Under the pieces are notes generated by a model. That model was not told the DNA's origin and did no database searches. It saw only the letters and a program-made list of their open reading frames with translations. Of a stretch of DNA of 64,000 nt, positions 5,542 through 60,392 are shown one piece after another (position 1 is the stretch's first letter; each line of letters begins with the position of its first letter). Made by a program: the position numbers and the translations under genes. Origin of the DNA: Chloroflexota bacterium (GTDB lineage: Bacteria; Chloroflexota; Anaerolineae; Anaerolineales; VGOW01); NCBI GenBank assembly GCA_016197225.1, contig JACPWC010000059.1, positions 1 to 64,000 on the forward strand, in the 5' to 3' direction.

Positions 5542-6653
5542 CATCGCTTCTTTCTCAAGCCAGGACTCTGATCAATCAAGGCCAAAGAGCCGAAGCTCAT
5601 CGTTTGCTTCAGCAGGCAGTGGCGCTTGACTCGAACAGCGTTGAGGCCTGGTTGCTGTTGGCGGCCATTGCCACGCCTGAAGCCAGCGTGATGTATGCTG
5701 AAAAGGCGCTGGCGCTTGACCCGAACAACACAACAGCGCAAGCCGCTCTGGCCTGGGCGCGCGGGCGACTCCCGCCGGAAAAACCCGCGCTCGAACTTCC
5801 CGCCGTTCCTCAGGCATATGCCGCCTCTCAGCCTCGCTATCAACCAGTTGCCGTCAGGCGTAAAAAGCCCGCGCCGCAACCTCCATCGTCCATCGTCCGT
5901 CGTCAATCGTCTTTTCCCTTCGGCCTGACGGCCCTCACCATCCTGGTCGCCCTCGTTGTCAGCGCCGCGCTACTTCTTGGCGGCGGACTGTTCTACCCGC
6001 CCATCCCTCGCGCCGTGGCCCAGGTGGGCACGCTTGCGAAAGCAACGTTCACTTTCACCCCCTCAAATACGCCGACGAACACACCGACCGCTACCGCGAC
6101 GCCCACAAACACACCAACGAATACGCCGACGTTCACTCCGACCGCTACCTTGACGCCTACCAATACTCCTACCTCAACCCCCACCAACACACCGCTTCCG
6201 ACGAACACGCCTCTGCCCACGGACACACCCCTGCCAACAAACACGCTTCTGCCGACCGCCAGGCCGCCCACCGCCACCGCACAACCTCCGGTGAGCGACG
6301 GCGCGCGCTGGATTGACGTCAACCTTTCCGAGCAAAGCATCACTGCTTACGAAGGCGACTCGCCTCTTGTCACCTTCATTGTCTCCACCGGAACCTGGCA
6401 ACACCCGACCGTCACCGGCAAGTACAATATCTACGTCAAACACACCTTTGCCGACATGCGCGGCCCCGACTACTTCTTGCCTGACGTGCCTTACGTGATG
6501 TATTTTTATCAAGGCTATGGCTTTCACGGCACGTACTGGCACAACAACTTTGGCACGCCCATGAGTCACGGCTGTGTCAACCTGCGCACCGAAGACGCCG
6601 CCTGGCTATTCGACTTTGCCTCGGTAGGCACTCAGGTTAGGATTCACTACTGA
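5538..6653 (+). CDS. L,D-transpeptidase (YkuD) with N-terminal TPR and Thr/Pro linker
   Basis: 371 residues. Residues 1-75 form TPR-like helices ([31 protein letters not shown]), 129-150 a single membrane helix, 170-250 a linker of repeated TPTNT/TPLPT, and 257-371 a YkuD domain. Catalytic residues are H330, H344 and C346 in SHGCVNLR. YkuD enzymes form 3-3 peptide cross-links or attach proteins to the wall through a thioester intermediate. The topology implies a cytoplasmic TPR and an extracytoplasmic catalytic domain. Residues about 115-125 (SSIVRRQSS region) are encoded by a heptamer array. The next gene is a second YkuD enzyme one base downstream. Confidence 0.9.
5881..5911 (+). repeat. 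Heptamer array inside the TPR-YkuD gene
   Basis: CTCCATC, GTCCATC, GTCCGTC, GTCAATC and GTC in register, coding for the junction just before the membrane helix. The word family is the same as the array over this gene's start codon. Confidence 0.8.
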
Positions 6654-30142: not shown

Positions 30143-31284
30143 CTGGCCCGCACCACCCGATAAATCGTCGTGATGTCGGAGTAGTAGATATTTCCATCCG
30201 GCCCCTGCACGAGATCGATCAGGCATTGTTTGTCAAAGCCGGTCTCGATGCGCTCCGACTTGTGCAGGTGATAGCCGTCTTCGGCCAATTCAAGGCGGAT
30301 CATTTTACCCACGTGCCATGAGCAGAAGATCATGTTGCCCTTCCACTCCGGGAAGGTCTCGCCGTCGTAAAACATAATGCCGGTCGGGCCGATGGTGGGG
30401 GTGAAGTAGAGCAGGGGCTTTTGATACGGATAGTCGGCAGGCAGGGCGTTGTCTTCGCAGAGGCCGTCAGTGTGCCAGCCGTAGTCGCCGCCCGGCGCGA
30501 TCAGGTTGATCTCGTCGTCGCAGTCGCCGCCATTCTCGGTTCCGTACAGCCAGCCGTTGGCCGGGTTGAAGGTGAAGTCGAACATGTTGCGCAGGCCGCG
30601 GGCGAAGATGGTGCTGTCCGGCTCAGGGTTGCCGGGGGCAGGGGCGGCGGGGAACGTCGTCGGGTCAACCCGATGCAGTTTGCCCTGCGGCGAGTCCGGT
30701 TCGTTGGAAGCGAACACGTTGTTGGTCGAACCGGCGGAGATGTACAACATGCCATCCGGCCCGAAGTGCAGGCCGCCGCCGTTGAGGATGGTGGACGTTT
30801 CAAATGCAATCTTGAACTCAAACGACACTTGCTCGTCAGCCGCCTTGTCGTCTTTCACGGTGAAGCGCGAAACGCGATTGACGAGCGCGTCGCCGCGCGT
30901 GTAGAACACCCACAGGTAGCCATTCTCGGCAAAGTTCGGGTCGAGGGCCAAACCCAACAGGCCGCGCTCGCCGCTGGCGTCAATGTTGGTGAGAGTTAAG
31001 ATCGGGTCGGACACTTTGCCGTCGGCTGTGATGACGCGCACTGTGCCGTTCTTCTCGGCGATGAACAGGCGGCCATCGGGTGCGAACTCCATAGCTACCG
31101 GGAAGGCGACGAAATTGGCAAATGTCTCAACTTTGTAAATGGCCTCGCCGACTTCCTCGACAGGGGCAGTGGTGAGAGAGAGGGTGGTAGTGGGGTCTGA
31201 TGGTTGGGTTGGGGTGGCGGTTGCCCCGGAGCAGGCGGTGAGGAAGAGAATGGAGATCAGGAGATTAGAGATTAGAGATTTCAT
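30139..31284 (-). CDS. PQQ-type sugar dehydrogenase-like lipoprotein (GSDH beta-propeller)
   Basis: 381 residues: lipoprotein signal peptide ending LFLTAC (lipobox, Cys 18), a Thr-rich spacer, then the glucose/sorbosone dehydrogenase propeller: FPVAMEFAPDGRLFIAEKNGTVRV, GERGLLGLALDP, NGGGLHFGPDGMLYISAG, ARGLRNMFDFTFNP, NGGDCDDEINLIAPGGDYGW. Proteins of this family are secreted, Ca/PQQ-binding aldose dehydrogenases or non-enzymatic relatives. The first seven codons (KSLISNL) are encoded by a GAGATTA heptamer array. A TATAAT box ends 6 nt before the ATG, so the mRNA is probably leaderless. Confidence 0.87.
   Translation of the reverse strand: MKSLISNLLISILFLTACSGATATPTQPSDPTTTLSLTTAPVEEVGEAIYKVETFANFVAFPVAMEFAPDGRLFIAEKNGTVRVITADGKVSDPILTLTNIDASGERGLLGLALDPNFAENGYLWVFYTRGDALVNRVSRFTVKDDKAADEQVSFEFKIAFETSTILNGGGLHFGPDGMLYISAGSTNNVFASNEPDSPQGKLHRVDPTTFPAAPAPGNPEPDSTIFARGLRNMFDFTFNPANGWLYGTENGGDCDDEINLIAPGGDYGWHTDGLCEDNALPADYPYQKPLLYFTPTIGPTGIMFYDGETFPEWKGNMIFCSWHVGKMIRLELAEDGYHLHKSERIETGFDKQCLIDLVQGPDGNIYYSDITTIYRVVRAR
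31256..31281. repeat. Heptamer array encoding part of a signal peptide
   Basis: GATCAGGA, GATTAGA, GATTAGA and GATTT on the plus strand. On the minus strand this is the start of the lipoprotein signal sequence. Confidence 0.75.
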
Positions 31285-32901: not shown

Positions 32902-35900
32902 TCACGGGGCCGGACACACCTCTACATGCAAATACTGCTGGCACTCCTCCGCCGTGAGCGACCGCGTGACGCGCGATTGAGCGAGCGCGATTAAGTCTTC
33001 TATGGGTAGCACGTAGACGCGCGCCGTCCTATCCGCACTGGTGGTGACCAGGCGCATCCCATCCGGGCTAAAGGCGGGTAGATAAACTGTACCGGCGTGA
33101 CCGTATAAGGTGAGCAACTCCTGCCCGCTCACGGCGTCCCAGACTTTCGCGGTCTTATCTGCGCTGGTGGTAGCCAGCCGCGTCCCATCCGGGTTGAAGG
33201 CCACGCCCCAAACTCCTCCGGCGTGGCCGGACAGCTCCATGAGCAGCTGGCCGGTCGCAGCATCCCACACTTTTGCGGTCTCGCCCGTATCAGCCGTGAG
33301 CAGACGCGTGCCATCCGGGCTGTAGGCGGCGTCGGTGAGGAAACTGGTCTGGATGGGCAGCCTGAACAGCTCCTGGCCGGTGGTGAGGTCCCAGACGATG
33401 GCCACATCGTCATCCCCGCCCGTGAGCAGGCGCGTCCCATCCGGGCTGAAGGCGAGGCAATGCAGCCCACCCGCGTGCCCGGATAAAGTGAGCAACTCCT
33501 GACCCGTCGTTACATCCCACAGCCTGGCCGTCTTATCCGCGCTGGTGGTAGCCAGGCGCGTCCCGTCCGGGCTGAACTCGACCTGACCGACGGCCGCACT
33601 ATGGCCGCTCAGGGTGAGCAACAACTGGCCAGAAGTTGCATCCCATATCTTCGCCGTTCCATCCCAACCGCCCGTGGCGATGCGCGTGCCATCCCGATTG
33701 AAGGCAATTCCCTCGACCAAGTCGGCGTACAGGGTGAACAACAACTGGCCGGAAGCCGCGTCCCACACTTTCGCCGTCCTATCCGCACTGGAGGTGGCCA
33801 GGCGCGTCCCATCAGGATTGAAGGCCACCCCATAGACCTCATTGGTGTGGCCGACCAGGGTGAACAACTCCCGGCTGGGCGCGGCCTCCCACACCCTTGC
33901 GGTTTCGTCGGTGCTAGCCGTGGCAATGCGTGCCCCATCCGGGCTGAAGGCGACGGCCTTGACTGCACTAGCGTGGCCGGCAAGGGTGAACAATTCCTGG
34001 CCCACAGAGGCATCCCAAACTTTCGCCGTTCCATCTTCGCTGACGGTGGCCAGGCGCATCCCGTCCGGGCTGAAGACCACGCCTTCGAGTCGAGCGGTAT
34101 GGCCGGATAAAGTCAACACCTCATCACCCGTCCCGGCATCCCACACTTTCGCCGTCGCATCGAAACTGGCCGTGGCCAGGCGTTGCCCATCCGGGCTGAA
34201 AGCGAGGTCAAGGATCACGCTATTGTGACCGGCCAGGGTAAGCAATTCCTCCCCCGTCACGGCATCCCATACCCTGGCCGTGTTGTCAGGGCCAACTGTC
34301 GCCAGGCGTGTCCCATCGGGACTGAAGGCGACATCGTGCGGAACAATAGTGTAATCAGGCGGTTGAGCGAGCTGGATGGAGAGGGTGAGCAAGACCCTCT
34401 CCGTCGCCAGATCCCAAACTCGCACCGTCCCATCGGTGCTAGCGGCGGCCAGGCGGGTCCCGTCCGGGCTAAAGGCAATCGCCGAAATAGGCGGGGCCTG
34501 CGCCGCTTCGCCCAGGGTGAGCAACGCTTCGCCGGGCGCAGTCGAAATGTCCCACACGGTCACCGTTCCATCCTGGCCGGCCGTGGCCAGGCGCGTCCCA
34601 CGCTCTGCGGGGTTGAAGGCGACGCTGTAAAGTTCGCCGCCGGGCGCGCCAGCCGCCTCGCCGCCGTGATCGCCATGGCCGCCGGACGCGCCTGCGTGGC
34701 CTCCTTGGGGGAGGGTGAACAACTCCTGGCCCGTCGTCGCATCCCATATTTTCGCCGTCCCGTCCAGACTGGCCGTCGCCAGGCGTGTCCCGTCGGGGCT
34801 GAAGGCGACGTCGCTCACCCCACTGCTGTGGCCGCGCAGGGCGAGGTGGGGTTGCGCCGCCGAGACGGCCCGGTGGAGCGCTTCTTCGGCTTCCCCTGTC
34901 CACGTTTTATCCACCGAGTAGGTCACCGACACGGCTTGCAGGGCCAGCAAAATGCTTCGGTCCGGGTCCACACCTACGTTGCTGACAGCGGCGGCGGCCC
35001 ATTCGCGCGAGGAGGCGAGGCGGGCCTGCTGTTCGGCACGCTGTGCGTTTTGAGTCGCCTGCTGACCGAACACCACGGCGGCGACTGCCAAGACGCCAGC
35101 GACGATCAAGGCAACGGTCAGGAACACAGCCCTCTGCCGCAATCGTTGAGCGGCTCGCCTCTCGGTCTCGGCCAATTTTCGGGCGGCCTCCAGTTCACGC
35201 CGTTGTCGCTCGCCCTCTACGGCTTCGCGCTGGCCACGCTCTGCAATGCTGGCATCGAGAAATGCACGCTCGTCGTGCGTCAGTGCAATCGAGGTATTTG
35301 CCGCCCAGCCCTCGAACTGCTCCAACTTCGCGCCGGTCAACAGGAAACTCGAGTCGCGGTTCGCGGCCTGCCATTCAGTGGCGGCGGCGGCGAGTTGGCG
35401 TTGCAGACGCACGTCGGCGCGCGACTCGTTCAGCCACTCGCGCAGACGCGGCCACTCGCGCAACAACGCCTCATGCGCCACTTCGACGGTGGGGCCACGC
35501 GTGATCGGGTCGCGGTCGAAGGAGAGGAGGCGATGTGCGCCGAAGGAATCGAGGACATTGCCGATTGGGAGCTTGAAATTTGAACTTTGAAGTTGTTCCA
35601 ATTCTGCCTTCAACACTCGCCTTCGCGTGTCTTCCACCCCTTCGCCCACTGTGACCAAACGCAAGAATAACTGGCGCGCGATAGATTGTTCGGCTTCGTT
35701 CAATCCCGCATACACGGCCTCGGTGCGTTTGCCCAACGCCCCGGTCACGCCGCCGAGATCGGCGTAGGCTTTCTTGGTGAGGGCGCGGCCTTCGCGTTTC
35801 TCGAACAGTTCGGTGAGGGCGTATTGCAACAACGGCAGTGCGCCGGGTTGATCGCCGACTTCACGGATCATAGCCGAGGTTAACCCGGCTTCCAAGCGCA

Positions 35901-37731
35901 AGCCGACTCGTTTGGCCGGGCCGAGGATAGCGCGCTCCAATTCATCGGGGGTGAGGGCCATGACGAATTCGGATCGCCGCTGGACGAGTTCGCCGAAGTC
36001 CACGTAGCGCAATGGCCGGTCGGTGAAGTCGGCGCGCAGGGTGATCACTAGACGCATTCGACTGCGCTCGTCGAGAACGGCTGTTACCAGATTGGTCAAT
36101 AGCAAAGCCCTTTCTTTTTCATCTGTGATCAACGTGAACACTTCCTCAAACTGATCGAGCACTAACACAAGTTCGACCGACTCGTCGGCGGGCAGAATGC
36201 GGTTGACCGCGCGCAGAAGGCCACGATTGCCGTCCCGCAATTGCGCCAGCAGACTCGGCGGCGGGTTGACGGCCACCCGCAGTAAAGCGGCTTCCAGTTC
36301 CTCAAAGGGGTGCGGCCCCGGCATGAAATCCACGATGAACCAATTTTCGGATCCGGGCAGGCCGCCACGCCGGAGGATCGGGAGCAGCCCCGCCTTCACA
36401 ACCGATGACTTGCCACTGCCACTTGGCCCGACGACGGCCAGGAAGCGCGACAGGTCGCCACCTTCGCCCAATCGCGCCAGCAGTTGTTGAATCAGACTCT
36501 CGCGCCCGAAGAAATCTTCTGAATCAGCCTCATTGAACGCGCGCAAGCCTTTGTAGGGATTGACGAGTTCAGTCTCAGCCTCTTCGTCCGGCGCTGGAAT
36601 GAAGACGGGCCGCGCTGTTGGACTGCCTTCCAGGGCGCGACGGAAATCGTCAAGCAGGCTCGACACATCTTGGTAGCGGTCTTGTGGATTTTTGGCCGTG
36701 GCCCGGCCAATCACCTCGTCCAGCGCGGCCGGCAATCCTGCGCGGCGGGCGGCTAACGGCGGCATGGGAGCATTAATGTGTTGTTGGATCAGGTCAAACG
36801 GGGTCGGCCCGGTGAATGGCAATGAGCCGGTCAGCATCTCATAGAGCATGACGCCGAGGCAATAGATGTCCGTCTGCGGTCTGACCGAGAGCGACCGGAT
36901 CTGTTCGGGCGACATGTACTGAGGCGACCCCATCACTACGTCCACCTGCGTATGCGCTTCGAGATTAGGGTTGCCGAGATTTTTAGCGATGCCGAAATCG
37001 GCAAGATAGACGTTGCTGTCTTCGTCCAGCAACACATTCGCCGGTTTGAGGTCGCGATGAATGACGCCGATGCGATGAGCGGCGTTCAGGGCCGAGCAAA
37101 TTTGTTCCAACAGGTGGTAGGCGGTCTCCAACGGAAGCGGCCCGTTCTGTATGAGCGCCTGTATGTTGCCCCCACGCAAAAGGCGCATCACCAGATAGGC
37201 CACGCCCGGCTCGCGCCAGTAGTCGTAGAGGGGAACGATGTGCGGGTGTTCGAGGCGGGCGACGAGTTGGGCCTCGGCTTCGAAGCGGCGGATGAAGTCG
37301 GGATGATTGGCGTAAGCGGGGAGGATGATTTTGATTGCAACTTCGCGCTCGACGTTGGGCTGAATGGCGCGATAGACTGCCCCCATGCCGCCACTGCCAA
37401 TTCGATCAGCCAGCGCGTAGCCGCGAATAGCCCGCCCGGTTAAATCTTCCTGGCCAATCTCTTCAAGCGCCGGAGCCGGGGTAGGGATTTCGGCGGGTTC
37501 AGGGTGGGCGGTTCTGGCTCGGCGGACAAACTCGGCCCGGTCGTCCAGCGGGATCGCCAGCGCCATTGCCAACCTTTCCGCGATCTGGACGGAAGGTCGC
37601 AGGTCGTCTGCCTCGATTTTGCGGATGGTGATGGCGGCGCATCCCACCCGCCGGGCCAATTCCTCTTGCGTCAGGTCAAGGGCGCGGCGGCGCTCGCGGA
37701 CAAAGCGGCTAAAGGACTCTTCGTTGCTCAT
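32902..37731 (-). CDS. HTH-Ser/Thr kinase-nSTAND1-WD40 signalling protein
   Basis: 1609 residues. 5-62: Xre-type helix-turn-helix (LTQEELARRVGCAAITIRKIE). 105-355: Hanks kinase with GSGGMGAVY (G-loop 112-120), VAIK (K134), HRDLKPANVLL (225-235) and DFG (245-247), so active. 391 on: nSTAND1 NTPase beginning NPYKGLRAFNEADSEDFFGRE, Walker A GPSGSGKSS (435-443) and Walker B LVLVLDQFEEVF. One membrane helix near 870-890 (VFLTVALIVAGVLAVAAVVFG). From about 940 to the end: 14 WD40 repeats, enough for two seven-bladed propellers. The second repeat has a Gly/His-rich insert. HTH, kinase and NTPase would be cytosolic and the WD40 part outside, or the helix is only peripheral. Role unknown; it resembles a ligand-gated or danger-sensing hub. 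Confidence 0.92.
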   Translation of the reverse strand: MSNEESFSRFVRERRRALDLTQEELARRVGCAAITIRKIEADDLRPSVQIAERLAMALAIPLDDRAEFVRRARTAHPEPAEIPTPAPALEEIGQEDLTGRAIRGYALADRIGSGGMGAVYRAIQPNVEREVAIKIILPAYANHPDFIRRFEAEAQLVARLEHPHIVPLYDYWREPGVAYLVMRLLRGGNIQALIQNGPLPLETAYHLLEQICSALNAAHRIGVIHRDLKPANVLLDEDSNVYLADFGIAKNLGNPNLEAHTQVDVVMGSPQYMSPEQIRSLSVRPQTDIYCLGVMLYEMLTGSLPFTGPTPFDLIQQHINAPMPPLAARRAGLPAALDEVIGRATAKNPQDRYQDVSSLLDDFRRALEGSPTARPVFIPAPDEEAETELVNPYKGLRAFNEADSEDFFGRESLIQQLLARLGEGGDLSRFLAVVGPSGSGKSSVVKAGLLPILRRGGLPGSENWFIVDFMPGPHPFEELEAALLRVAVNPPPSLLAQLRDGNRGLLRAVNRILPADESVELVLVLDQFEEVFTLITDEKERALLLTNLVTAVLDERSRMRLVITLRADFTDRPLRYVDFGELVQRRSEFVMALTPDELERAILGPAKRVGLRLEAGLTSAMIREVGDQPGALPLLQYALTELFEKREGRALTKKAYADLGGVTGALGKRTEAVYAGLNEAEQSIARQLFLRLVTVGEGVEDTRRRVLKAELEQLQSSNFKLPIGNVLDSFGAHRLLSFDRDPITRGPTVEVAHEALLREWPRLREWLNESRADVRLQRQLAAAATEWQAANRDSSFLLTGAKLEQFEGWAANTSIALTHDERAFLDASIAERGQREAVEGERQRRELEAARKLAETERRAAQRLRQRAVFLTVALIVAGVLAVAAVVFGQQATQNAQRAEQQARLASSREWAAAAVSNVGVDPDRSILLALQAVSVTYSVDKTWTGEAEEALHRAVSAAQPHLALRGHSSGVSDVAFSPDGTRLATASLDGTAKIWDATTGQELFTLPQGGHAGASGGHGDHGGEAAGAPGGELYSVAFNPAERGTRLATAGQDGTVTVWDISTAPGEALLTLGEAAQAPPISAIAFSPDGTRLAAASTDGTVRVWDLATERVLLTLSIQLAQPPDYTIVPHDVAFSPDGTRLATVGPDNTARVWDAVTGEELLTLAGHNSVILDLAFSPDGQRLATASFDATAKVWDAGTGDEVLTLSGHTARLEGVVFSPDGMRLATVSEDGTAKVWDASVGQELFTLAGHASAVKAVAFSPDGARIATASTDETARVWEAAPSRELFTLVGHTNEVYGVAFNPDGTRLATSSADRTAKVWDAASGQLLFTLYADLVEGIAFNRDGTRIATGGWDGTAKIWDATSGQLLLTLSGHSAAVGQVEFSPDGTRLATTSADKTARLWDVTTGQELLTLSGHAGGLHCLAFSPDGTRLLTGGDDDVAIVWDLTTGQELFRLPIQTSFLTDAAYSPDGTRLLTADTGETAKVWDAATGQLLMELSGHAGGVWGVAFNPDGTRLATTSADKTAKVWDAVSGQELLTLYGHAGTVYLPAFSPDGMRLVTTSADRTARVYVLPIEDLIALAQSRVTRSLTAEECQQYLHVEVCPAP

Positions 37732-37878: not shown

Positions 37879-40134
37879 CTATTTCTGGTAGGAGGTGAGG
37901 GGGATGTCAGAGTAGCGTTTGCCGTCGGCCAGGGAATACAAACCGACTCGAATGCCGTATTCACCCGGCGGCAGGTCGGGCGAGATGGGGTGGCGTTGGA
38001 CGATGATGTCGCCAGCTTGCCAATATTCAGCAGGAACGCCAAGGGCGTCGTAGGCTTCGGCTAAAGCGCCGTCGGGCCAGTTGAAGTGGACGAAGATGGA
38101 GACGGGCGGCGGGGCGGGTTCGGTGACGAGCCAGGTGAGGGTGAGGGCTTCAGGGGAGAGGTCGTAGTTGAGGAGGGAGAGGTATTTGGAGTTGGTTATT
38201 GGTAATTGGTTATTGGTTATTAGTAATTGGCCGCTCCGCGTGGTTATTGAGGAGCGGTAGAGGCGATAGTAGGTTGTGCCGTCACTGCGTTTCCATTCGT
38301 AAGCAGGTTGGCCGAGGTCAATGATTGGTGTTTGGTCTTCGGGGTAAAGGATGAGGCCGGGGTGGGCGGGTAGGAGGATGCTATTGGCGCAGTCGAAGGT
38401 GAGTTGGCGGGCTTGGCGGTTGAGCAGGTGAGTTGTCGTTGCCAAAATGGGTGGGGCGCATTGAGCGAAAGAAGTAACAGGTTCCCGCTCCGGAACTTCA
38501 TAGACGAAGATGGAGTAGTTAATGACGGCGAGCGGAGTCAGGTTGCGGAAGTAGGCGAAGGTGTTGGGCTGATCGAGTTGGGCGCCGACGAAGTTGCTGG
38601 CCGAGATGGCGTAGAGGCCGGGGGCCGGGTCGGCGGGGGAGAAGTCGGCAACATCATCGGGCGGCGGCCACCCCGGCAGGCGAGTCGCGTTGATGCCGTA
38701 ATAAGCCGGATCGGCTTGTCCAAAGTAAGAAAGATAAACGGGGCGGCCGTCGAGGGCGCGGGCAAGCGCCGGCAAGTCTTGTCCCCAGTCTAAGTTGGAG
38801 TCGGCCAACACTTGGTAGCCGTTCTCCGGGCCGACGAATTCGTTGAAGTAGGCGAGGAAGTGAGGGGCGATGGCGAGGGTGGAGGCGGCGTGGGCGATGA
38901 AGAGAAGAGTGAGGAGTATTGCGTATCGCGTATTGCGTATTGCGTGTTGCGTAACGGAGGCGGCGAGGATGTGGAGGAGTGGAAGCGCCGGGAGGAGGTA
39001 GCGGTAGCCGACGTTGAGGGAGAAGATGGTGATGGTAGCAAGAAGGTAGAGTGAAGCCGGAAGAAAGACGTTGGCGAGCGCGTATTGCGTGTTGCGTATT
39101 GCGTATTGTTTACGAAATACGGAATACACAATAAGAGCGGTGGTCATGAAGAGCAGAATGAGGAGCGGCAGGGGTGTTTTGACTGCGAAAACAACCAGAT
39201 GGTAATACCACCAGCCTTTGAGTGAGAGTTGGCCGAGGAGGTAAGCGGTGTGGCCGCCGGTGGCTAAGTTGGTCAGGTCGGTAAGCTCGCGGAGGTATTG
39301 GGCGAGCGGGTAGGGGTTGAGGGCGAAGCCGTAGGTGGCCCAGGCGGTGAGGAAGGCGGTTACAAGAATCAATAAACCACGAAGGCACAAGGGCACAAGG
39401 GCACTAAGAAAATAATTCTTTGTGCCTTTGTGCTTTTGTGCCCTAGTGTTGAACAAGTTGAGTAGAAAAAGCAAACCGAGGGTGGGGCCGAGGAGGAGGG
39501 CGGAGAATTTGCTGGTGAGGGCGCAACCTAAGAAGATGCCGGTGAGGATGGCGTTGCGGGTGTTTGGCTTTTTGGTGAAGCGATACCAGGCGTAGAGGGT
39601 GAAGACGTAGAAGGCGGCTACGGGGAGGTCGGTGGTGGCGAGGGCGGCGTTGGCGAGAAGGTTGGGGCTGAGGGCGTGCAAGGCCAATGCCGCCATGGCG
39701 GCTTCCCAGCCGAACAATTCTTTGGCCCAGCGGGCAGTCACGGCTCCGAGTATCAGACCGAGGAGCAGAATCGGGTAGCGTCCGAGAAATGTGAGGCGGC
39801 CGGCATTGAGGCCGCGCTTCCACATCAAGTCACTGCTGGAGTCGTCGTACTGGTCGCCGGCCCAGCCGTCGAGGGTGCGCGGGTCGGGCAGGTTCGGCTC
39901 GAGGATGACGCCGAGGGCCGAGAGCCAGTGGGCGAGTGGCGGGTGGCCGATGGGGACGAGGTGGCCGGTGCGGAGGGCGGCGTAGCCGCGCAGGAGGGTG
40001 TAGCCTTCGTCGAAGGTGGGCGAGGTGGTGGTGAGTTGGGCGAGGGCGAGGGCGAAGAAAATAGTAAGCAGTAAACAGTAAACAGTGCGTATTCCGTAGT
40101 GCGTATTGTGTATCGAAGATTGCGCGCCGTTCAC
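37879..40134 (-). CDS. GT39/PMT-like glycosyltransferase, ORF containing several repeat insertions
   Basis: 751 residues from a GTG inside a heptamer array. GT-C features: first-loop acidic motif TTTSPTFDEGYTLLRGY, HPPLAHWLSAL, LNAGRLTFLGRYPILL, ALTSKFSALLLGP, then about ten helices and an extracytoplasmic C-terminal domain (NLDWGQDLPALARALDGRPVYLSYFG). It probably transfers a sugar from a polyprenyl carrier; the adjacent GT2 may make that donor. At least five segments are encoded by repeat arrays: the N-terminus, NTRAQKHKGTKN/LVPLCLRGL, FRKQYAIRNTQYAL, TQHAIRNTRYAIL and LLITNNQLPITNSKYL. All keep the frame open. Confidence 0.85.
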   Translation of the reverse strand: MNGAQSSIHNTHYGIRTVYCLLLTIFFALALAQLTTTSPTFDEGYTLLRGYAALRTGHLVPIGHPPLAHWLSALGVILEPNLPDPRTLDGWAGDQYDDSSSDLMWKRGLNAGRLTFLGRYPILLLGLILGAVTARWAKELFGWEAAMAALALHALSPNLLANAALATTDLPVAAFYVFTLYAWYRFTKKPNTRNAILTGIFLGCALTSKFSALLLGPTLGLLFLLNLFNTRAQKHKGTKNYFLSALVPLCLRGLLILVTAFLTAWATYGFALNPYPLAQYLRELTDLTNLATGGHTAYLLGQLSLKGWWYYHLVVFAVKTPLPLLILLFMTTALIVYSVFRKQYAIRNTQYALANVFLPASLYLLATITIFSLNVGYRYLLPALPLLHILAASVTQHAIRNTRYAILLTLLFIAHAASTLAIAPHFLAYFNEFVGPENGYQVLADSNLDWGQDLPALARALDGRPVYLSYFGQADPAYYGINATRLPGWPPPDDVADFSPADPAPGLYAISASNFVGAQLDQPNTFAYFRNLTPLAVINYSIFVYEVPEREPVTSFAQCAPPILATTTHLLNRQARQLTFDCANSILLPAHPGLILYPEDQTPIIDLGQPAYEWKRSDGTTYYRLYRSSITTRSGQLLITNNQLPITNSKYLSLLNYDLSPEALTLTWLVTEPAPPPVSIFVHFNWPDGALAEAYDALGVPAEYWQAGDIIVQRHPISPDLPPGEYGIRVGLYSLADGKRYSDIPLTSYQK
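38194..38228. repeat. In-frame heptamer array GGTTATT (5 units)
   Basis: GGTTATT, GGTAATT, GGTTATT, GGTTATT and AGTAATT in exact 7-nt phase inside the GT39-like gene. The same words recur at 42627-42655 between genes. Confidence 0.85.
38916..38957. repeat. In-frame heptamer array GTATTGC (6 units, 42 nt)
   Basis: GTATTGC, GTATCGC, GTATTGC, GTATTGC, GTGTTGC and GTAACGG, six exact 7-nt units. Total 42 nt equals 14 codons, so the frame is preserved. Confidence 0.9.
39082..39132. repeat. In-frame inverted heptamer arrays (51 nt)
   Basis: GTATTGC, GTGTTGC, GTATTGC and GTATTGT, then TT, then the complementary ACGAAAT, ACGGAAT and ACACAAT. The stretch is 51 nt, 17 codons, inside a loop of the GT39-like protein. 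Confidence 0.9.
39376..39450. repeat. In-frame inverted array of GGCACAAG words
   Basis: CACGAAGGCACAAGGGCACAA with further GGCACTAAG on the left is approximately complementary to CTTTGTGCC, TTTGTGC, TTTTGTGCCC and TAGTG on the right, around AAAATAATT. It is coded as NTRAQKHKGTKN...LVPLCLRGL. Confidence 0.8.
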
Positions 40135-40163
40135 TGTTCACTACTCACTGTTGGCTGTTCACT
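40063..40163. repeat. Chain of heptamer arrays spanning the GT2/GT39 gene junction
   Basis: AGTAAGC, AGTAAAC and AGTAAAC (40063-40083); GCGTATT-type words (40085-40115); then GTTCACT, GTTCACT, ACTCACT, GTTGGCT and GTTCACT (40129-40163). The last array holds both the TGA stop of the GT2 gene (40145-40147) and the GTG start of the GT39-like gene (40132-40134). Confidence 0.85.
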
Positions 40164-40903
40164 GACAATCGGTGCCGCCACATGAGCCGCCACATGTCTT
40201 TGATGTTCTGCCACACTTTCATTTTGGTTGCGCCGGGTTTGCGGTCGTAGCGCAAGTCCATGGGCGTTTCGCCGAACTTGAGGCCGGGCAGGAGCGAGAG
40301 CTTGAGCAAAATTTCGGTCATGCAGGCGAAGCCTTGCTCGGTGATCAGTTGATCGCCCCAACGATTCACAGTGCGCCGCAGGGCGCTGGCGCGGTAAAGG
40401 CGGAAGCCGCACGAGAAGTCGCGCACGCCGGGAATGGGGGTGAAGGTTTGAAATAGCACGCTCACGCCCCAACTGAACAGTTGGCGGTGCGGCGGGATGC
40501 CTTCCATTTTTGCGCCGGGTTGAAAACGGGAAGCGATCACCACGTCAAGGCCGGTGTTCAGTTTGTCGAGCATGAGTTTGAGTTCGCGCGGCTGATGTGA
40601 GTTGTCAGCGTCCATGCTGGCGATGAGGCCATCTTCAGGGGCGGCGGCCAACGCGGCGGCGAGGCCGGTGCGCATGGCCTGGGCCAGGCCCATGTTGCGC
40701 GGGTGCGGCACGAGCTTCACCCAGCCAGTGTTAAAATCGCGGACGACCTGGGCAGTATTGTCCTTGCTTCCGTCGTTCACGACGATGACGCTCAGGTTGG
40801 GGAGGAGGGTGGCGCGGGTCTCGGCGACGGCGGCGAGCAGGGGCGGGAGGGCTTCCTGCTCGTTGTAGGCGGGGAGGACAAGGATGATAGAAGGATGGGG
40901 CAT
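40145..40903 (-). CDS. Family 2 glycosyltransferase, dolichyl-phosphate mannose synthase-like
   Basis: 252 residues: GT-A fold with LVLPAYNEQEALPPLL, VIVVNDGSKDNT (first Asp motif), MDADNSHQPREL (DxD-like) and ASRFQPG, then RLYRASALRR. No C-terminal membrane helices, which fits a polyprenyl-phosphate sugar synthase of the DPM1 type. It lies upstream of the GT39-like gene on the same strand, so it may supply that enzyme's lipid-linked sugar. The last residues (SVNSQQ) and stop codon come from a heptamer array. Confidence 0.9.
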   Translation of the reverse strand: MPHPSIILVLPAYNEQEALPPLLAAVAETRATLLPNLSVIVVNDGSKDNTAQVVRDFNTGWVKLVPHPRNMGLAQAMRTGLAAALAAAPEDGLIASMDADNSHQPRELKLMLDKLNTGLDVVIASRFQPGAKMEGIPPHRQLFSWGVSVLFQTFTPIPGVRDFSCGFRLYRASALRRTVNRWGDQLITEQGFACMTEILLKLSLLPGLKFGETPMDLRYDRKPGATKMKVWQNIKDMWRLMWRHRLSVNSQQ

Positions 40904-40944: not shown

Positions 40945-42618
40945 CTATCTCGTCAACGGCTTGTAGTGAATGCGATGCGGCGTGTCGGCGGCCAGGCCCA
41001 GGCGCTTGTGGCGATCTTCTTCGTAGTCGGAGAAGTTGCCGTCGAAGAAGCGCGCCTGGCTGTCGCCTTCGAAGGCCAGAATATGAGTGGCGATGCGGTC
41101 GAGGAACCAACGGTCGTGGCTGACGACGACGGCGCTCCCGCCAAAATTGTCGAGCGCCTCTTCGAGTGCGCGCAGGGTGTTCACGTCCAGGTCGTTGGTC
41201 GGCTCGTCGAGCATGATGACGTTCGCGCCTTCCTTCAGCGTCTTGGCCAGCAAAACGCGATTGCGCTCGCCGCCGGAGAGTGACTTCACTTTCTTTTGTT
41301 GATCGGTTCCGAGGAAGTTGAAGCTGGCGACGTAAGCCCGCGAGTTCATCCGCCGTGTGCCTAACACCAGACTCTCCTCCCCGCCCGAAATTTCCTCCCA
41401 TACGTTCTTCTCGCCGTCGAGCGTCTCCCGGCTTTGTTCCACGTAGGCCAGTTTGACCGTCTCGCCAAGTTTGAACGTGCCGGTGTCGGGCGACTCGTGG
41501 CCGGTGATCATTTTGAGCAGAGTCGTTTTGCCGGCGCCGTTGGGGCCGATGACGCCGACGATGCTTCCCGGCGGCACGGTGAAGGTGGCGTTATCAATCA
41601 AGAGGCGGTCGCCAAACTATTTGCTCACGCCCTTGCACTCGATCACCACGTCGCCCAATCGCGGGCCGGGCGGGATATAAATTTCCAGATTCTCGCGGCG
41701 CTCCTCTTGTTCCTGGCTGAGGAGTTTTTCGTAGGCGGTGACGCGCGCTTTGCCTTTGGCCTGCCGCGCTTTGGGCGACATGCGAATCCATTCCAGCTCG
41801 CGCTCCAGCGTCTTCTGGCGTTTGCTCTCGGCCTGCTCTTCCTGCGTCAGCCGCGTCTGCTTTTGCTCCAGCCACGACGAGTAGTTGCCCTTCCACGGAA
41901 TGCCGTAGCCGCGATCCAGTTCCAGGATCCAACCGGCCGCGTTGTCGAGAAAGTAACGGTCGTGGGTGACGGCGATGACCGTGCCTTTGTATTGTTGCAA
42001 ATGCTTTTCCAGCCAGGCCACCGACTCGGCGTCGAGATGATTCGTCGGCTCGTCGAGGAGCAAAATGTCCGGTTCGGTGAGCAGGAGACGGCAGAGGGCG
42101 GCGCGGCGGCGCTCGCCACCGGAGAGAACGGTGACGGGCGTGTCGCCGGGCGGACAACGAAGCGCGTCCATCGCCAGTTCCAGCCGGGCGTCCAGGTTCC
42201 AGGCGTCGTGCTTGTCCAACTCATCTTGCAGTCGCGCCTGTTGCGCGATCAGCGCGTCGAAGTCGGCGTCGGGTTCGGCGAACCTGGCGTTGACTTCGTC
42301 GAACTTCGCCAGCATGTCTTTGATGGGTTGGACGGCCTCTTCGACAACTTGCTTCACCGTTTTGTTTGAATCAAGTTGCGGTTCCTGCTCAAGCAGGCCG
42401 ACGGTGTAACCGGGGCTTCTGACGATTTCGCCGACGTAGTCCTGATCGACTCCGGCCATGATGCGAAGCAAAGTGCTTTTGCCGGCGCCGTTGAGGCCGA
42501 GCACGCCGATCTTTGCGCCGTAGTAGAAACCGAGCGAGATGTCGCGCAGGACTTGCTTGTTGGGTGGGTGGATGCGCCCGACGCGCACCATCGAAAAGAT
42601 GACTTGTCCGTCTGCCAT
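40945..42618 (-). pseudogene. ettA: EttA-like ABC-F translation factor with an in-frame TAG
   Basis: Reading through one codon gives 557 residues, the normal EttA length. First half (42618-41620): GLNGAGKSTLLRIMAG Walker A, LSGGERRRAALCRLLL signature, LLDEPTNHLDAESV Walker B, and an arm/linker. Second half (41616-40945): [42 protein letters not shown], ending [14 protein letters not shown]. Between them ECKGVSK is followed by TAG (41619-41617) and then [12 protein letters not shown] in the same frame, so one codon is a nonsense codon. EttA gates ribosomes by ATP/ADP ratio. It may be a single-base error, a recent pseudogene or a split gene. Confidence 0.9.
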
Positions 42619-44742: not shown

Positions 44743-44751
44743 ATCTCTATT

Positions 44752-46731
44752 TTATGCCGCTTTGCGGATTTCTTCCACCGCCACCGGATTCTCCAACGAG
44801 CTTGTGTCGCCCGGGTCTTGGCCCAAATACGCCGAGCGGATGATGCGGCGCATGACTTTGGCGTTGCGGGTTTTCGGCAGGTCGCGCACGAATTTGATCT
44901 CGCGCGGCTTGAGGGGCTTGCCGAGTTCGGCGGCCACTTTTTCTTTGAGGGCTTCACGCAACTCATCCGATGGTTGGTGGCTTGGCTTGAGTACGCAGAA
45001 GCACACCACTTCGTTGCCCTTCACTTCGTCGGGGACGGCGATGGCGGCGGCCTCGGCCACGGCGGGGTGGGCGACGAGAATCGACTCGACTTCAGCCGGA
45101 CCGAGACGCTTGCCCGCCACTTTGATCGTGTCGTCCGACCGGCCCAGGATGTACCACAGGCCGTCGTCGTCAATGGCGGCCCAGTCGCCGTGAACCCAAA
45201 CATTCGGCCAACGCGACCAATAGATGTCTTCGTAACGTTGCGGGTCTTTCCAGAAGCCGTGCGTCATGCCAATCCAGGGCGCTTTGATGACGAGTTCGCC
45301 GACGGCATTGCGAACCGGCTGGCCGTTCTCGTCGAACACGTCGGCGGCGATGCCGGGGCAGGGCGCAGAGAAGGCGCAGGGCTTGAGGGGCAGGAGCGGA
45401 TTGCCCATGACGATGCCGCCCGAAATTTCGGTGCCGCCGGAATAGTTGATGATGGGCAGTTTGCCGCCGCCCACGGTGTTGAACAGCCACAGCCAGGGAT
45501 CAGGATTCCACGGCTCGCCCGTTGAGGCGAAGGCGCGAAGCGAAGAAAGGTCGTGCTTCTTCACCGGCTCGTCGCCAAACTTGAGAATGGCGCGAATGAA
45601 GGTTGGGGACACGCCGAGGGTCGTGACCTTGTGGCGGGCGACCATTGACCAGAGTCGGTCGGGGCCGCCTCCTAGCTTCGCCGGGGCGTAGTCGGGTGAC
45701 CCGTCGTAAAGAAACATCGTCGCGCCCAACAGAGTCACGCCGAACACTTGCCAGGGGCCCATCATCCAACCCATGTCGGTCATCCAATACAAAATGTCGC
45801 CGGGTTGAATATCAGTGCCGAAGGCCATGTCTTGCGCCGCTTTGACCGGGAAGCCGCAGTGCGTATGAACCGCGCCTTTGGGTTTGCCGGTCGTGCCGCT
45901 GGTGTAGATGATCATCAGCGGGTCTTCGGCAGAGGTCGGCTCGCTGGGGGCCAGCTCCATTTGCTTTGGCATTTCGTCGTGCCACCAGTGATCGCGCCCG
46001 GCCTGCATGTTCACTTCGTTGCCGACGCGCTTGAAGACGAACATTTTTTGCAGAGTCGGAATCTGTTTGGCCGCCTCGTCGGCGGTGGGTTTGAGGGGGA
46101 CAAGCTGGCCGCGCCGGAAGAATCCGTCGGCGGTGAAGAGCGCCTTCGCGCCCGCGTCGTTGAGGCGCGAGACGATGGCCGAGACGCCGTAGCCGGAGAA
46201 GAGCGGCAGAACAATGCCGCCGATCTTGACGATGGCGAGCAGGGCGACGACGATTTCCGGCGTCATGGGCATGAAGAGGCCGACGGCATCGCCCTTCTTC
46301 AAGCCGTGCGCCCGGAGCATGTTGGCGCAACGGTTGACTTCAAAGAAGAGGTCGCCGTAAGTGAGCAAGCGGACATCTCCTTCTTCGCTTTCGTAGATGA
46401 TGGCGACTCGTTCTCGCGTCCCGGTTTCGAAATGTTTGTCTACGCAGTTGAAGGCGATGTTGGTCATGCCGCCCACACACCACTGCGGCCACTGAATGCC
46501 TTTGGACAGATCGATGACGGACGAATAGGGGCGCTGGAAACTGATGTCCAGAAACTTGAGCACGGCATCGGTGAACCAGGCCACGTCGGTGGTCGAGCGC
46601 GCCAGCAATTCGTCAAAGGAGGTGATGTTGTGCTGACTCATAAATTTTTGCAGGTTGGAGCGAGCGATGATTTCGGGCGACGGTCGCCAGACGATGTCGC
46701 CGCCGAAGGTGAAGGTGCCTGTGTCGGTCAT
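44752..46731 (-). CDS. Acetyl-CoA synthetase-like acyl-CoA ligase
   Basis: Start at [10 protein letters not shown] (46731); upstream in-frame codons belong to a heptamer array. 659 residues of the AMP-forming ANL superfamily: [15 protein letters not shown] (P-loop), [45 protein letters not shown] (hinge) and the C-terminal [12 protein letters not shown] with the acetylatable Lys. The N-terminal ACAS_N-like region and length match acetyl/propionyl-CoA synthetases. It makes acyl-CoA from a short carboxylate and ATP. Promoter TTGTCT-17-TACAAT is followed by the ATG after 7 nt. Confidence 0.9.
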
Positions 46732-46738
46732 GCGATAT

Positions 46739-46767
46739 ATTGTAATGAACAATGAACAATGAGACAA
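46739..46767 (-). promoter_or_regulatory. Promoter of the acyl-CoA ligase, built on a heptamer array
   Basis: On the minus strand TTGTCT (46767-46762), an exactly 17-nt spacer and TACAAT (46744-46739), 7 nt before the ATG. The spacer is two and a half units of the CATTGTT/ATTGTTC array. Confidence 0.6.
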
Positions 46768-46816
46768 TGAAGAAATGAAAACCCCCAATTTCCAAAATCC
46801 CAAATTCCAAATCCCA
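46741..46816. repeat. Two heptamer arrays in a divergent gap (AATGAAC and AAATCCC words)
   Basis: AATGAAC, AATGAAC, AATGAGA and CAATGAA are followed by AACCCCC, AATTTCC, AAAATCCC, AAATTCC and AAATCCC. Reading frames on both strands run through it, which is why naive starts would lie inside. Confidence 0.85.
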
Positions 46817-46831
46817 ATGAGGGTTAGCACG

Positions 46832-57904: not shown

Positions 57905-57908
57905 GCCC

Positions 57909-60335
57909 TTACAACGCTATTCTTTGCCCGGTGGCCATGGCAACATGCGCCAGCGCCTTGTAGGCCGCATCACGCACGCCGGGCGAATTTTCACGGGCGG
58001 CGGCGATGAGGACAGGAATGGCGTCGGTGTGTGTCAGGCGGCCCAGGTAATCGGCGGCGGCCATGCGGTTCGGCTCGTCGCCATCCTGCATGGCCTGCAC
58101 CAGAGCGGCCTTGCTGGCCGGGCCGGCAGGCACGCCGCGCCCCTTGCTGGCCGCAAAGGCCACCAGCCAGCTTGACGTTTCGGGAGAAGGCACGGGTTCG
58201 GGGAAATGATCCGGCGGCTCGCGCAATTCCTGAGCCGCGGCCTCGGCGGCGTTGCGCACCAGCCACTGCGTATCATTGAGGAAAGCGTTGTCCAACAGTT
58301 CCAGCACCCAGGGTGCCGGGCCGACGCGCTTCATGCCCGCCACCGCGCCGCGCCGCACCACCACATCCTTGTCCTTGATGGCGTCCTGCAACATCTTGTG
58401 GCCCTCAGCCGGGTGTAGGGCCAGCGCCTCGCACACCGCCCGGCGCAGTTGCTCGTTGCCCTCTACCAGGGCGACGGCCAACCCTTCGAGCGAGTTCTGG
58501 TCGCCGATGACGGCCAGGGCCAGCGCCGCCGCCCAGCGCACGTACAAATCGTCGTCGTTCAACAGTTTGCGAATCTCGCCCACTGCCGTCATGTCGCTCA
58601 ACGCGCCGAGAGCCAGAACCGCATACTGCCGGGCCAGCGGGTCGGCGCTGCTCAGGTTTTGCTTGAAGAGCTTGTTCACGCTCTCGTCGCGCGAGGCCAC
58701 CAGCGCGCAGGCCGCCCGCGCCCGCAATTGAGTGGGCAGGTTTTGGGTCACAAAGAACTGAGCCAGCTTGCGGAACACGTCGCCGCGCCAGGGCGCATTG
58801 AGGGGCGCATCGCTCAGCCAGCCGGCGGCCGCAAACAAATCCGTTTGAAAGGCGTCGGGCGGCGCGGCTACTCTTTGCATGGCGATGCTGGAGGCATTGG
58901 CCAGCGAGGCATAAAACCGCAAGGCCACCGTCCAGCCCGGCTGTCCATGAACTGCCGTGATCGCGTCGGTGTCGCTGCCCGCCGCAAAATGTCGCGCCGC
59001 CAAATAACCGGCCACTGCCGGATGTGAAAATGAATAGCGCCCGCCGGATCGTTTGACCAGCAGGCCGCCTTTGCGCGCCAACTCGTCCACCAGATCGTCG
59101 GCGTCCATGGACGACGGGTGAGCCGTCTCGGCTCGACTGGCGTTGATCCACTCCACCAGCTTCTCGCGCGGCGCGCCGTAACGATCACGCGACAGCATTT
59201 CGGCGGCGGCGCGCTCCAATGCTTTGCGCGCTTCGGGGGCGATAGACAGGCGCTTGACGAAAGTCTCAAACCAATCTACCGGGCGCGCGCCCTCGGCGTC
59301 GCCGGCCAGCCCCGTCCAAATCTTCAGCGACACGTCCAGTGGAGACCGCCCGCCGGCGCCGCCGGTGAGCCAGCCGGCCACCAGCGCCGGGTCGAGATCG
59401 TCGTCGCGCTTGCGGCGCTTCTGCGCGGCCAGCACCGAAGGCCAGACCGCCACCCACTTGTCCACCAGCGATTGGAACATCGTCGTTGACCAGCCGCCCA
59501 TGATCACCGGCACGAAGTCGAGCGAGAGGAAGGGCGCAAAGCCGGCGAGCGGCCCGGTGGCGATGATCCGATTCTTCCCGTAAGTTGCCCGGAAATTTCT
59601 CAGCCACTCGATCACCAGCGCCTGATGCGAGGACGGCAGATCGTCGAAGCCATCCAGCAGGATCAGCGCCTTGCCTTCTTTGAGGATGTTTTTGAAGAAG
59701 GAGGGAAAAGCCGGGGCGGTGATGGCGCTCAACCGGGCCGAGACGGCCTCCACCAACGGTTGAGCCGGATCTGTTTTTTCGGCGATGGGCAATTCCAAAT
59801 CCCCGACGTGAACCAGCGCCGGCACGACCGGCTTGTCAAAGATTTCAGTAGCGACGTTGGACTCGGCGGCAATGGAGCCAAGCTGGGCCAGCAGGGCGCT
59901 CTTGCCGGCGCCGGGCCTGCCGACGACGATCAGGCTGTGCGGGGCGCGGGCGAGATCGCGCAGCGTGTAAGACGGTGTTTGATAGAGCGCGGTCAGGTCG
60001 GGGAAGTCGGGCGTGGATGGGACGACGAGGGTGAGGTCGGATTCCGGCTCTTTGCCGGGGTCGGCCATCGGTTCATCAATCCAGAAATGCGGTTGAACGA
60101 AAATTTCGTCGAGGGCGATGATGGAGCCGGCAATGTGATGGGTTTGCCAGAGGCCCAGCACGTCCTGCCGGTAGCGTTGCTCGGCGCCGGAGCTGAGGCG
60201 TTCGCCAAATCGCTTGAAGGTGTCGCCGATGTTATCGCGTGTGTTTCGCAGACCTTCGCGGAAGCGATAGATCAGCCCGAAGAAAATGGTGGCGGTGAGA
60301 AAGCCGAGGAGGAAGGAGACGAGATCAAAGCGCAT
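57909..60335 (-). CDS. Membrane-anchored NACHT-type NTPase with HEAT repeats
   Basis: Start at MRFDLVSFLLGF (60335); the longer frame would translate a heptamer array. 808 residues: membrane helix 5-23, a linker, P-loop VVGRPGAGKSALL (137-149), Walker B ALILLDGFDDLP (223-234), a winged-helix-like middle, and C-terminal HEAT-like repeats (AVLALGALSDMTAVGEIRKLL, AAALALAVIGDQNSLEGLA, AADYLGRLTHTDAIPVLIAAA). The design is that of STAND signalling ATPases, some of which act in antiphage immunity or stress sensing. No effector domain is seen beyond the membrane helix, so the output may be membrane-linked. Confidence 0.9.
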   Translation of the reverse strand: MRFDLVSFLLGFLTATIFFGLIYRFREGLRNTRDNIGDTFKRFGERLSSGAEQRYRQDVLGLWQTHHIAGSIIALDEIFVQPHFWIDEPMADPGKEPESDLTLVVPSTPDFPDLTALYQTPSYTLRDLARAPHSLIVVGRPGAGKSALLAQLGSIAAESNVATEIFDKPVVPALVHVGDLELPIAEKTDPAQPLVEAVSARLSAITAPAFPSFFKNILKEGKALILLDGFDDLPSSHQALVIEWLRNFRATYGKNRIIATGPLAGFAPFLSLDFVPVIMGGWSTTMFQSLVDKWVAVWPSVLAAQKRRKRDDDLDPALVAGWLTGGAGGRSPLDVSLKIWTGLAGDAEGARPVDWFETFVKRLSIAPEARKALERAAAEMLSRDRYGAPREKLVEWINASRAETAHPSSMDADDLVDELARKGGLLVKRSGGRYSFSHPAVAGYLAARHFAAGSDTDAITAVHGQPGWTVALRFYASLANASSIAMQRVAAPPDAFQTDLFAAAGWLSDAPLNAPWRGDVFRKLAQFFVTQNLPTQLRARAACALVASRDESVNKLFKQNLSSADPLARQYAVLALGALSDMTAVGEIRKLLNDDDLYVRWAAALALAVIGDQNSLEGLAVALVEGNEQLRRAVCEALALHPAEGHKMLQDAIKDKDVVVRRGAVAGMKRVGPAPWVLELLDNAFLNDTQWLVRNAAEAAAQELREPPDHFPEPVPSPETSSWLVAFAASKGRGVPAGPASKAALVQAMQDGDEPNRMAAADYLGRLTHTDAIPVLIAAARENSPGVRDAAYKALAHVAMATGQRIAL

Positions 60336-60390
60336 AGTGCGTATCGCGTATTGCGTATCGCAATAAGCTATCAGCGATACGCGATATGCC
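60336..60390. repeat. Inverted heptamer arrays (GCGTATT words)
   Basis: GTGCGTATC, GCGTATT and GCGTATC, then GCAATAA, GCTATCA, and complementary GCGATAC and GCGATAT. It spans the 57-nt gap between the NACHT start and the zinc-ribbon stop. Confidence 0.85.
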
Positions 60391-60392
60391 AA

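Follow-up and report, generated by a model that had tools for sequence, protein, structure and literature searches.

The open reading frame (ORF) at 37879–40134 on the minus strand of the window, that is, of the whole stretch of 64,000 nucleotides analysed here, starts with GTG and is, as judged from sequence profiles and a structural model, the gene of a PMT/ArnT-like (GT-C, GT39-type) membrane glycosyltransferase of 751 amino acids. Its translation matches the Pfam families PF13231 (PMT_2) with 50.7 bits (cut-off 26.1) and PF02366 (PMT) with 39.8 bits (cut-off 22.7), and a profile search against solved structures returned yeast PMT1/PMT2 and ArnT among its matches. Foldseek with the AlphaFold model (mean pLDDT 72) retrieved Pmt4 and ArnT, the best being 9i5k and 5ezm (E 2e-7 to 2e-6), with modest TM-scores of 0.34–0.41. 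The protein shares with the PMT/ArnT glycosyltransferases (PF13231, PF02366; 9i5k, 6p25, 5ezm) the transmembrane (TM) core and the conserved DE after TM1, here the nearly invariant acidic pair D42 and E43, and differs from them by a C-terminal beta domain and by the array-derived loops described below. Homologues were found in 68 of the 346 genomes covered by a class-wide search, among them GT39-type proteins of 35–44% identity. Upstream, at 40145–40903 on the minus strand, lies a GT2-type glycosyltransferase gene, whose last codons (VNSQQ) are themselves array-derived. The same strand also carries an EttA-like ABC-F ATPase gene (41617–42618 and 40945–41601), the frame of which is intact apart from one in-frame TAG (VSK*FGDR, where the related genome G004 has TKAYGD); a sequencing error, a pseudogene or read-through are all possible. 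A further minus-strand ORF, at 32902–37731, encodes a protein of 1609 amino acids. As read from its sequence, this protein has a helix-turn-helix-like stretch at the N-terminus, together with a WD40-type propeller and a serine/threonine kinase domain; the scan for heptamer arrays gave none with a score of 11 or above in this ORF.

The glycosyltransferase ORF contains five arrays with a period of 7 or 8 nucleotides, all open in the coding frame, the limits of which were sharpened by self-match at lags 7 and 8. The N-terminal site (40063–40164, residues ~1–24) consists of (AAACAGT)n followed by (CGTATTN)n, together forming an array from 40063 to 40113 or 40115, and of a facing arm of (GTTCACT)n that extends to ~40164; residues 7–24 fall at the N-terminus and in the first turns of TM1 in the AlphaFold model. 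Site 4 (39376–39450, sharpened to 39378–39441) is built of two arms that face each other and consist of the 8-nt units GGCACAAG and CTTTGTGC (CACAAAGG / CCTTTGTG); it codes for residues 229–253, which in the model run from the end of the TM helix 210–233 through a loop into helix 240–267. Site 3 (39080–39132, residues 335–351, KQYAIRNTQYA) combines (CGTATTG)n at 39080–39108 with an inverted partner at ~39109–39132 and falls in the loop between the modelled helices 322–340 and 347–370. Site 2 (38916–38957, sharpened to 38916–38952; residues 393–407, QHAIRNTRYAI) is again (CGTATTG)n, placed by the model between helices 383–392 and 402–422. Site 1 (38192–38228, residues 636–648) is (TTGGTTA/TTGGTAA)n, coding QLLITNNQLPITN, within a low-confidence loop (632–660) of the C-terminal domain where the pLDDT of residues 636–648 is under 50; the array-coded residues of the enzyme also include, for example, NTQYALANVFLPASLYLLATITIFSLNVGYR. 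A reading made from the sequence alone had reported at least five arrays in this ORF, read in frame, with odd peptides (AIRNTQYA, AIRNTRYA, ITNNQLPITN, KHKGTKN) at tolerant loops between helices; the arrays and the peptides are as it described, and in the predicted structure the array residues do fall at loops or helix ends. It had also remarked that two of the array lengths were exact multiples of three. Although 42, 51 and 75, three of the five lengths quoted, are divisible, this carries no weight, because the edges of the arrays are fuzzy and divisibility is therefore uninformative; the segment has to be judged by its net length as a whole.

Three of the sites are predicted to form strong RNA hairpins. 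The N-terminal one reaches from the last part of the GT2 gene across the intergenic gap into the first part of the glycosyltransferase gene (–41.1 kcal/mol, z –5.2), site 4 folds with –40.7 kcal/mol (z –7.7) and site 3 gives z –3.6, while no significant RNA hairpin was obtained at sites 1 and 2. The GTG start codon itself (40132–40134, minus strand) lies inside a (CAGTGAA) array unit, and GTGAAC stands at the corresponding place in the two orthologues of the same genus, G003 and G004. No other in-frame ATG, GTG or TTG occurs ahead of the conserved TM1, the array GTG being the only usual start codon there, so that the N-terminal array would be translated, if the enzyme is made. In this trivial sense, as the supplier of the start codon, the N-terminal array is indispensable; otherwise the array peptides are probably without a specific function in the enzyme.

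The gene was compared, by codon alignment, between the window's genome (G000) and the orthologues of G004 (same genus, 69%), G003 (same genus, 57–64%, in two pieces), G025 (another family, 52%) and G060 (37%, partial). G004 carries arrays at all five sites of G000, mostly with other 7-mers, and G003 at some of them, whereas the G025 orthologue has no array. At the N-terminal site, where the protein is variable in all orthologues, the words differ between G000 and G004, and G003 has a degenerate array. The CACAAAGG/CCTTTGTG arms of site 4 are replaced in G004 by CGCGATC and CATTCGT words; the inverted CGTATTG pair of site 3 is common to G000 and G003, while G004 has CATTCCG and CCTCCTT words; and at site 2 the CGTATTG of G000 corresponds to TTGGAAGT-type words in G003 and G004, those of G004 being TTTGGAG-type. 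Only at site 1 are the words of G000 and G004 near-identical, with no array in G003 or G025. One additional G004 array (L051, 13545–13579) sits in an ungapped, alignable stretch. In the G003 orthologue (L004, G003:C70, ~1550–1700) a deletion with a change of frame, reaching from directly behind the PVAAFY motif as far as ATYGF, removes the region of the site-4 array; it may be a real break or an assembly join and was left out of the evidence.

The residues coded by the G000 arrays are only 19% identical to G004 (73% outside the arrays) and 16% to G025 (54% outside), with a range of 16–33% overall, and random sets of five segments, matched in length, were in none of 20,000 draws as poorly conserved as the five array sites. 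No orthologue bearing the same residues over non-periodic DNA came to light, G025 having neither the arrays nor those residues. A simple protein repeat was rejected as an explanation, as the array residues are unconserved and the 7-nt units pass through all three codon phases. An assembly artefact was rejected too, since independent assemblies show arrays at orthologous positions and other genomes, some of them non-MAG records, contain them as well.

The lengths of the segments between conserved anchors, with the protein alignment as ruler, bear directly on how the arrays came to be there. In the order G000/G004/G003/G025, the segment of site 4 measures 45/39/deleted/42 amino acids, that of site 3 47/49/42/43, that of site 2 29/33/33/25 and that of site 1 23/20/14/15. 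One possible history is that noncoding arrays were inserted, or expanded, at five places, as lineage-specific gains kept where the frame survived. The sequence-only reading had proposed just this, and site 1 agrees with it, since G000 and G004 have a net in-frame gain of 8–9 codons there over G003 and G025; on these alignments site 1 is the only clear net insertion, common to G000 and G004. The noncoding composition of the arrays (GC3 of 43% within them against 76% elsewhere in the gene) points the same way. The other internal sites, however, differ by just 3–4 residues, even though the arrays are 15–25 residues long: sites 4, 3 and 2 are nearly as long in the array-free G025. Nor are the sites lineage-specific, since they are common to species with different words. 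The proposal that new protein segments arose from noncoding repeats stands as far as the lack of conservation and the repeat-like composition of the segments go, but insertion as the way in which they arose is mostly unsupported. As segment length is barely altered except at site 1, the arrays mostly replaced existing variable loops, and the shared sites with other words argue that the same tolerant loops were overwritten time and again, rather than hit by five independent insertions.

Could the peptides coded by the arrays, or their RNA hairpins, be useful to this enzyme or its mRNA, the periodicity of the DNA being a mere consequence? The strength of the three predicted hairpins would suit such selection. 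So would the concentration of arrays in this gene, which has the highest count among 185 orthologue pairs in both G000 and G004. Yet neither peptide nor hairpin is conserved, the words differing between species, two of the five sites are without a significant hairpin, and like arrays occur in unrelated genes and between genes. A selected protein or RNA feature is thus the least credible of the readings considered, and very improbable.

The five arrays are members of a single family, spread over the genome, of short arrays with heptamer and sometimes octamer units. In a scan for segments with a lag score of at least 14, in which order-3 Markov shuffles served as control, lag 7 gave 33 segments in 446 kb of G000 (0 in the shuffles) and 48 in 398 kb of G004 (1 in the shuffles), a frequency of 74–121 per Mb in the genus; in the G000 sequence lag 8 gave 13 segments and other lags 0–4, harmonics at 14–16 excepted. 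The arrays are thus not a product of chance. A larger sample, of 1.51 Mb of G000 and 1.20 Mb of G004 (~30% of each genome; genes called as the longest ORF, with no trained gene finder), contained 234 and 257 arrays at lag 7 or 8, of which 101 and 129 (43–50%) lie fully in ORFs. Density is far higher outside than inside ORFs (487 vs 74 per Mb in G000, 529 vs 120 in G004). At the in-ORF density of ~74 per Mb, only ~0.2 arrays are expected for a gene as long as that of the glycosyltransferase, which with five is an outlier. The GC content of the arrays is 38–46%, compared with 61–62% in their flanks, and is lowered within genes too, where GC3 of the array codons is 45% (G000) and 55% (G004) against 75% in the remainder of the same genes. 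The vocabulary is restricted, with 57 distinct words in G000 and 70 in G004 where random draws would give 97 and 151. Words with stops on both strands account for 2 of 72 and 0 of 96 arrays in ORFs and for 8 of 103 and 13 of 117 elsewhere, a deficit that follows partly from the definition of an ORF.

Other arrays of the window also lie in ORFs, near the ends that code for N-termini, at 46744–46817 (ORF 44751–46830, minus strand) and at 60326–60389 (ORF 57908–60392, minus strand), the latter with facing CGTATTG/CGATACG arms; smaller heptamer arrays, at 31245–31280 and 5882–5911, lie within other ORFs or at their ends. A near-perfect GTTTGGA array of G004 (L104, 1806–1963; G004:C9) reaches ~18 units, 4–5 being typical, and faces a short complementary arm.

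Facing arms are frequent in the family. Within 100 bp, 61 of 175 arrays in G000 (35%) and 50 of 213 in G004 (23%) have a facing complement that is 10 nt or longer, as against 3.8 and 7.2 arrays (2–3%) under the null, whereas extra direct copies numbered only 3 and 9; the count of facing complements may include both arms of one hairpin, and 69 separate hairpins were listed. Rickettsia palindromic elements are selfish DNA that resides in frame within protein-coding genes, each family having one recognisable sequence of 100–150 bp that is inserted as a unit. The facing arms, the dispersal and the in-frame residence of the present arrays recall these elements, and a MITE-like or RPE-like palindromic unit that jumps and is tolerated in frame was accordingly weighed. 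Such a unit should have a body, but none common to the hairpins was detected in their loops or outer flanks: same-word and different-word hairpins score 8.3 and 8.1 in the flanks and 4.5 and 3.7 in the loops. Hairpins with the same word, without usefully similar loops or flanks, are therefore not copies of one element. Moreover, loop length varies from 5 to 134 nt (median 23 nt), and most arrays have no partner arm. The mobile element was rejected because the hairpins share no body, and we regard it as quite improbable.

Growth in place, by slippage from a chance heptamer duplication and with no exchange between sites, would be a simpler source of arrays. Tandem units do vary from unit to unit, bacteria are known to show slippage of heptamers (PMC4692102, PMC4679880), and 7-nt indels separate strains of Cyanothece (PMC4679880). 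Slippage in place does not explain, though, why the GC content of the arrays should lie 15–23 points under that of the flanks, in genes as elsewhere, or why the words should be few, and simple slippage does not make facing inverted arms. In addition, one word recurs across phyla. Three tandem copies of CGTATTG are present in the genome collection in no fewer than 119 stretches, and the matches listed are mostly from Chloroflexota but include Phycisphaerae, Kiritimatiellales, Bacteroidota and others; some of these arrays lie in ORFs and code for the same RNTQYAIRNT peptide. Among 151 genomes of the order the CGTATTG word was met 19 times, in 5 genomes, whereas two composition-matched control words were absent, which indicates that the word itself, and not merely its composition, is favoured. 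Purely local slippage is for these reasons a rather improbable account.

The persistence of sites and the turnover of words were followed in 185 reciprocal-best orthologue pairs of G000 and G004. An internal array is present in at least one species in 17 of the 185 pairs, and in both species in only 6. Of the 14 internal arrays of G000, 10 coincide with an array of G004, in excess of an approximate, conservation-matched null in which placement was confined to stretches of similarly low conservation (p 0.002, or 0.005 when the glycosyltransferase gene is left out). Where one species alone has the array, the net difference in length has a median of +1 amino acid for arrays of 13 amino acids, and just 3 of the 22 single-species arrays add at least 70% of their own length. 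With so few gains of length, plain insertion appears unlikely as the general history of these arrays. The array-less partner segments remain enriched in 7-nt periodicity (Fisher p 7e-5). At the shared sites the words are related in ~4 of 12 cases and at chance level in the others, inherited words being seen at site 1 and in G000_295, so that both inheritance and replacement of words must have taken place.

Taken together, the observations are probably, though not securely, explained by a dispersed and fast-evolving family of heptamer repeats whose array-prone sites are kept while the words at them turn over, and whose survivors within genes are those that are stop-free, frame-neutral and placed in tolerant loops. 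As composition, vocabulary and hairpins suggest, slipped or template-switching repair synthesis would write and rewrite the arrays, copying from other arrays, and snap-back of this synthesis on itself may produce the facing arms. Existing arrays would be preferred targets, and sites would in this way persist as words change. Selection would then remove in-gene arrays that bring a stop, a frame shift or damage to the folded core, leaving peptides in loops. A bolder proposal, which we hold to be possible but doubtful, is that of a distinct, as yet unnamed DNA-writing process, spread across bacterial phyla, with a 7-nt register, a shared vocabulary, length-neutral overwriting and a preference for array-bearing sites, that replaces protein loops. 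If this is true, a DNA-writing process keeps supplying new peptides to protein loops. Reports of heptamer repeats in bacteria go back decades; most concern intergenic DNA, and they do not explain how the repeats arise. Since the same loops carry different words with little change in length, the turnover of in-gene arrays becomes traceable, and it becomes testable how arrays are written, why the unit is seven and how often repeat DNA yields new protein segments. The glycosyltransferase offers a natural case in which repeat DNA repeatedly rewrites parts of working proteins.

Among known systems, the coding palindromes of Nematomorpha mitochondria resemble the present arrays in being inverted repeats inside protein-coding genes, but they are long and perfect, and the abstract describes no heptamer arrays of restricted vocabulary (PMC6649704). 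The likeness to the Rickettsia palindromic elements lies in the in-frame repeat DNA of ordinary genes, at sites that the fold tolerates, and in a palindromic tendency; the arrays differ from them in having no shared body, in their 7-nt units and in a segment length that is mostly conserved. They are not G-quadruplex heptamers of the GGGNATC type either, since the dominant words are not G4 formers: the commonest (AATCTCT, AACCAAT, AACAGTG, AATACGC, AAGGATG and AAACTCC) contain no GGG on either strand, the exception being AAATCCC (4 arrays in G000). The closest resemblance is to the heptameric SSR/STRR of cyanobacteria and to related heptamer repeats in Xanthomonas, Beggiatoaceae, Microcystis, Bacteroidetes and Chloroflexus aurantiacus (PMC4692102, PMC4679880, PMC6749651). 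Heptameric SSRs are over-represented in many bacteria but little studied (PMC4692102); in Chloroflexus aurantiacus a single heptamer makes up 22 satellites (PMC6749651), and Microcystis and Bacteroidetes have mixed heptamer assemblages, nearly all intergenic, with a few sets in small ORFs in Microcystis (PMC4679880). In the literature searched, mostly outside subscription journals, no description was found of heptamer arrays in the present group; nor did the literature yield a precedent for sister species that differ in their words at shared in-gene sites, or for near length-neutral replacement. As in the SSR/STRR, the units here are 7-nt tandem repeats in excess over chance and over other lengths (site 4 itself being 8-nt), more than one word occurs per genome, and the arrays are dispersed, at higher density in intergenic DNA, and present in distant phyla; this is a resemblance and does not imply common descent. 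The present family differs from them in its many words per genome (57–70 in the 1.2–1.5 Mb sampled), in its frequent facing arms, in the 43–50% of arrays that lie fully in ORFs, conserved enzymes included, and in the different words that sister species carry at the same in-gene sites.
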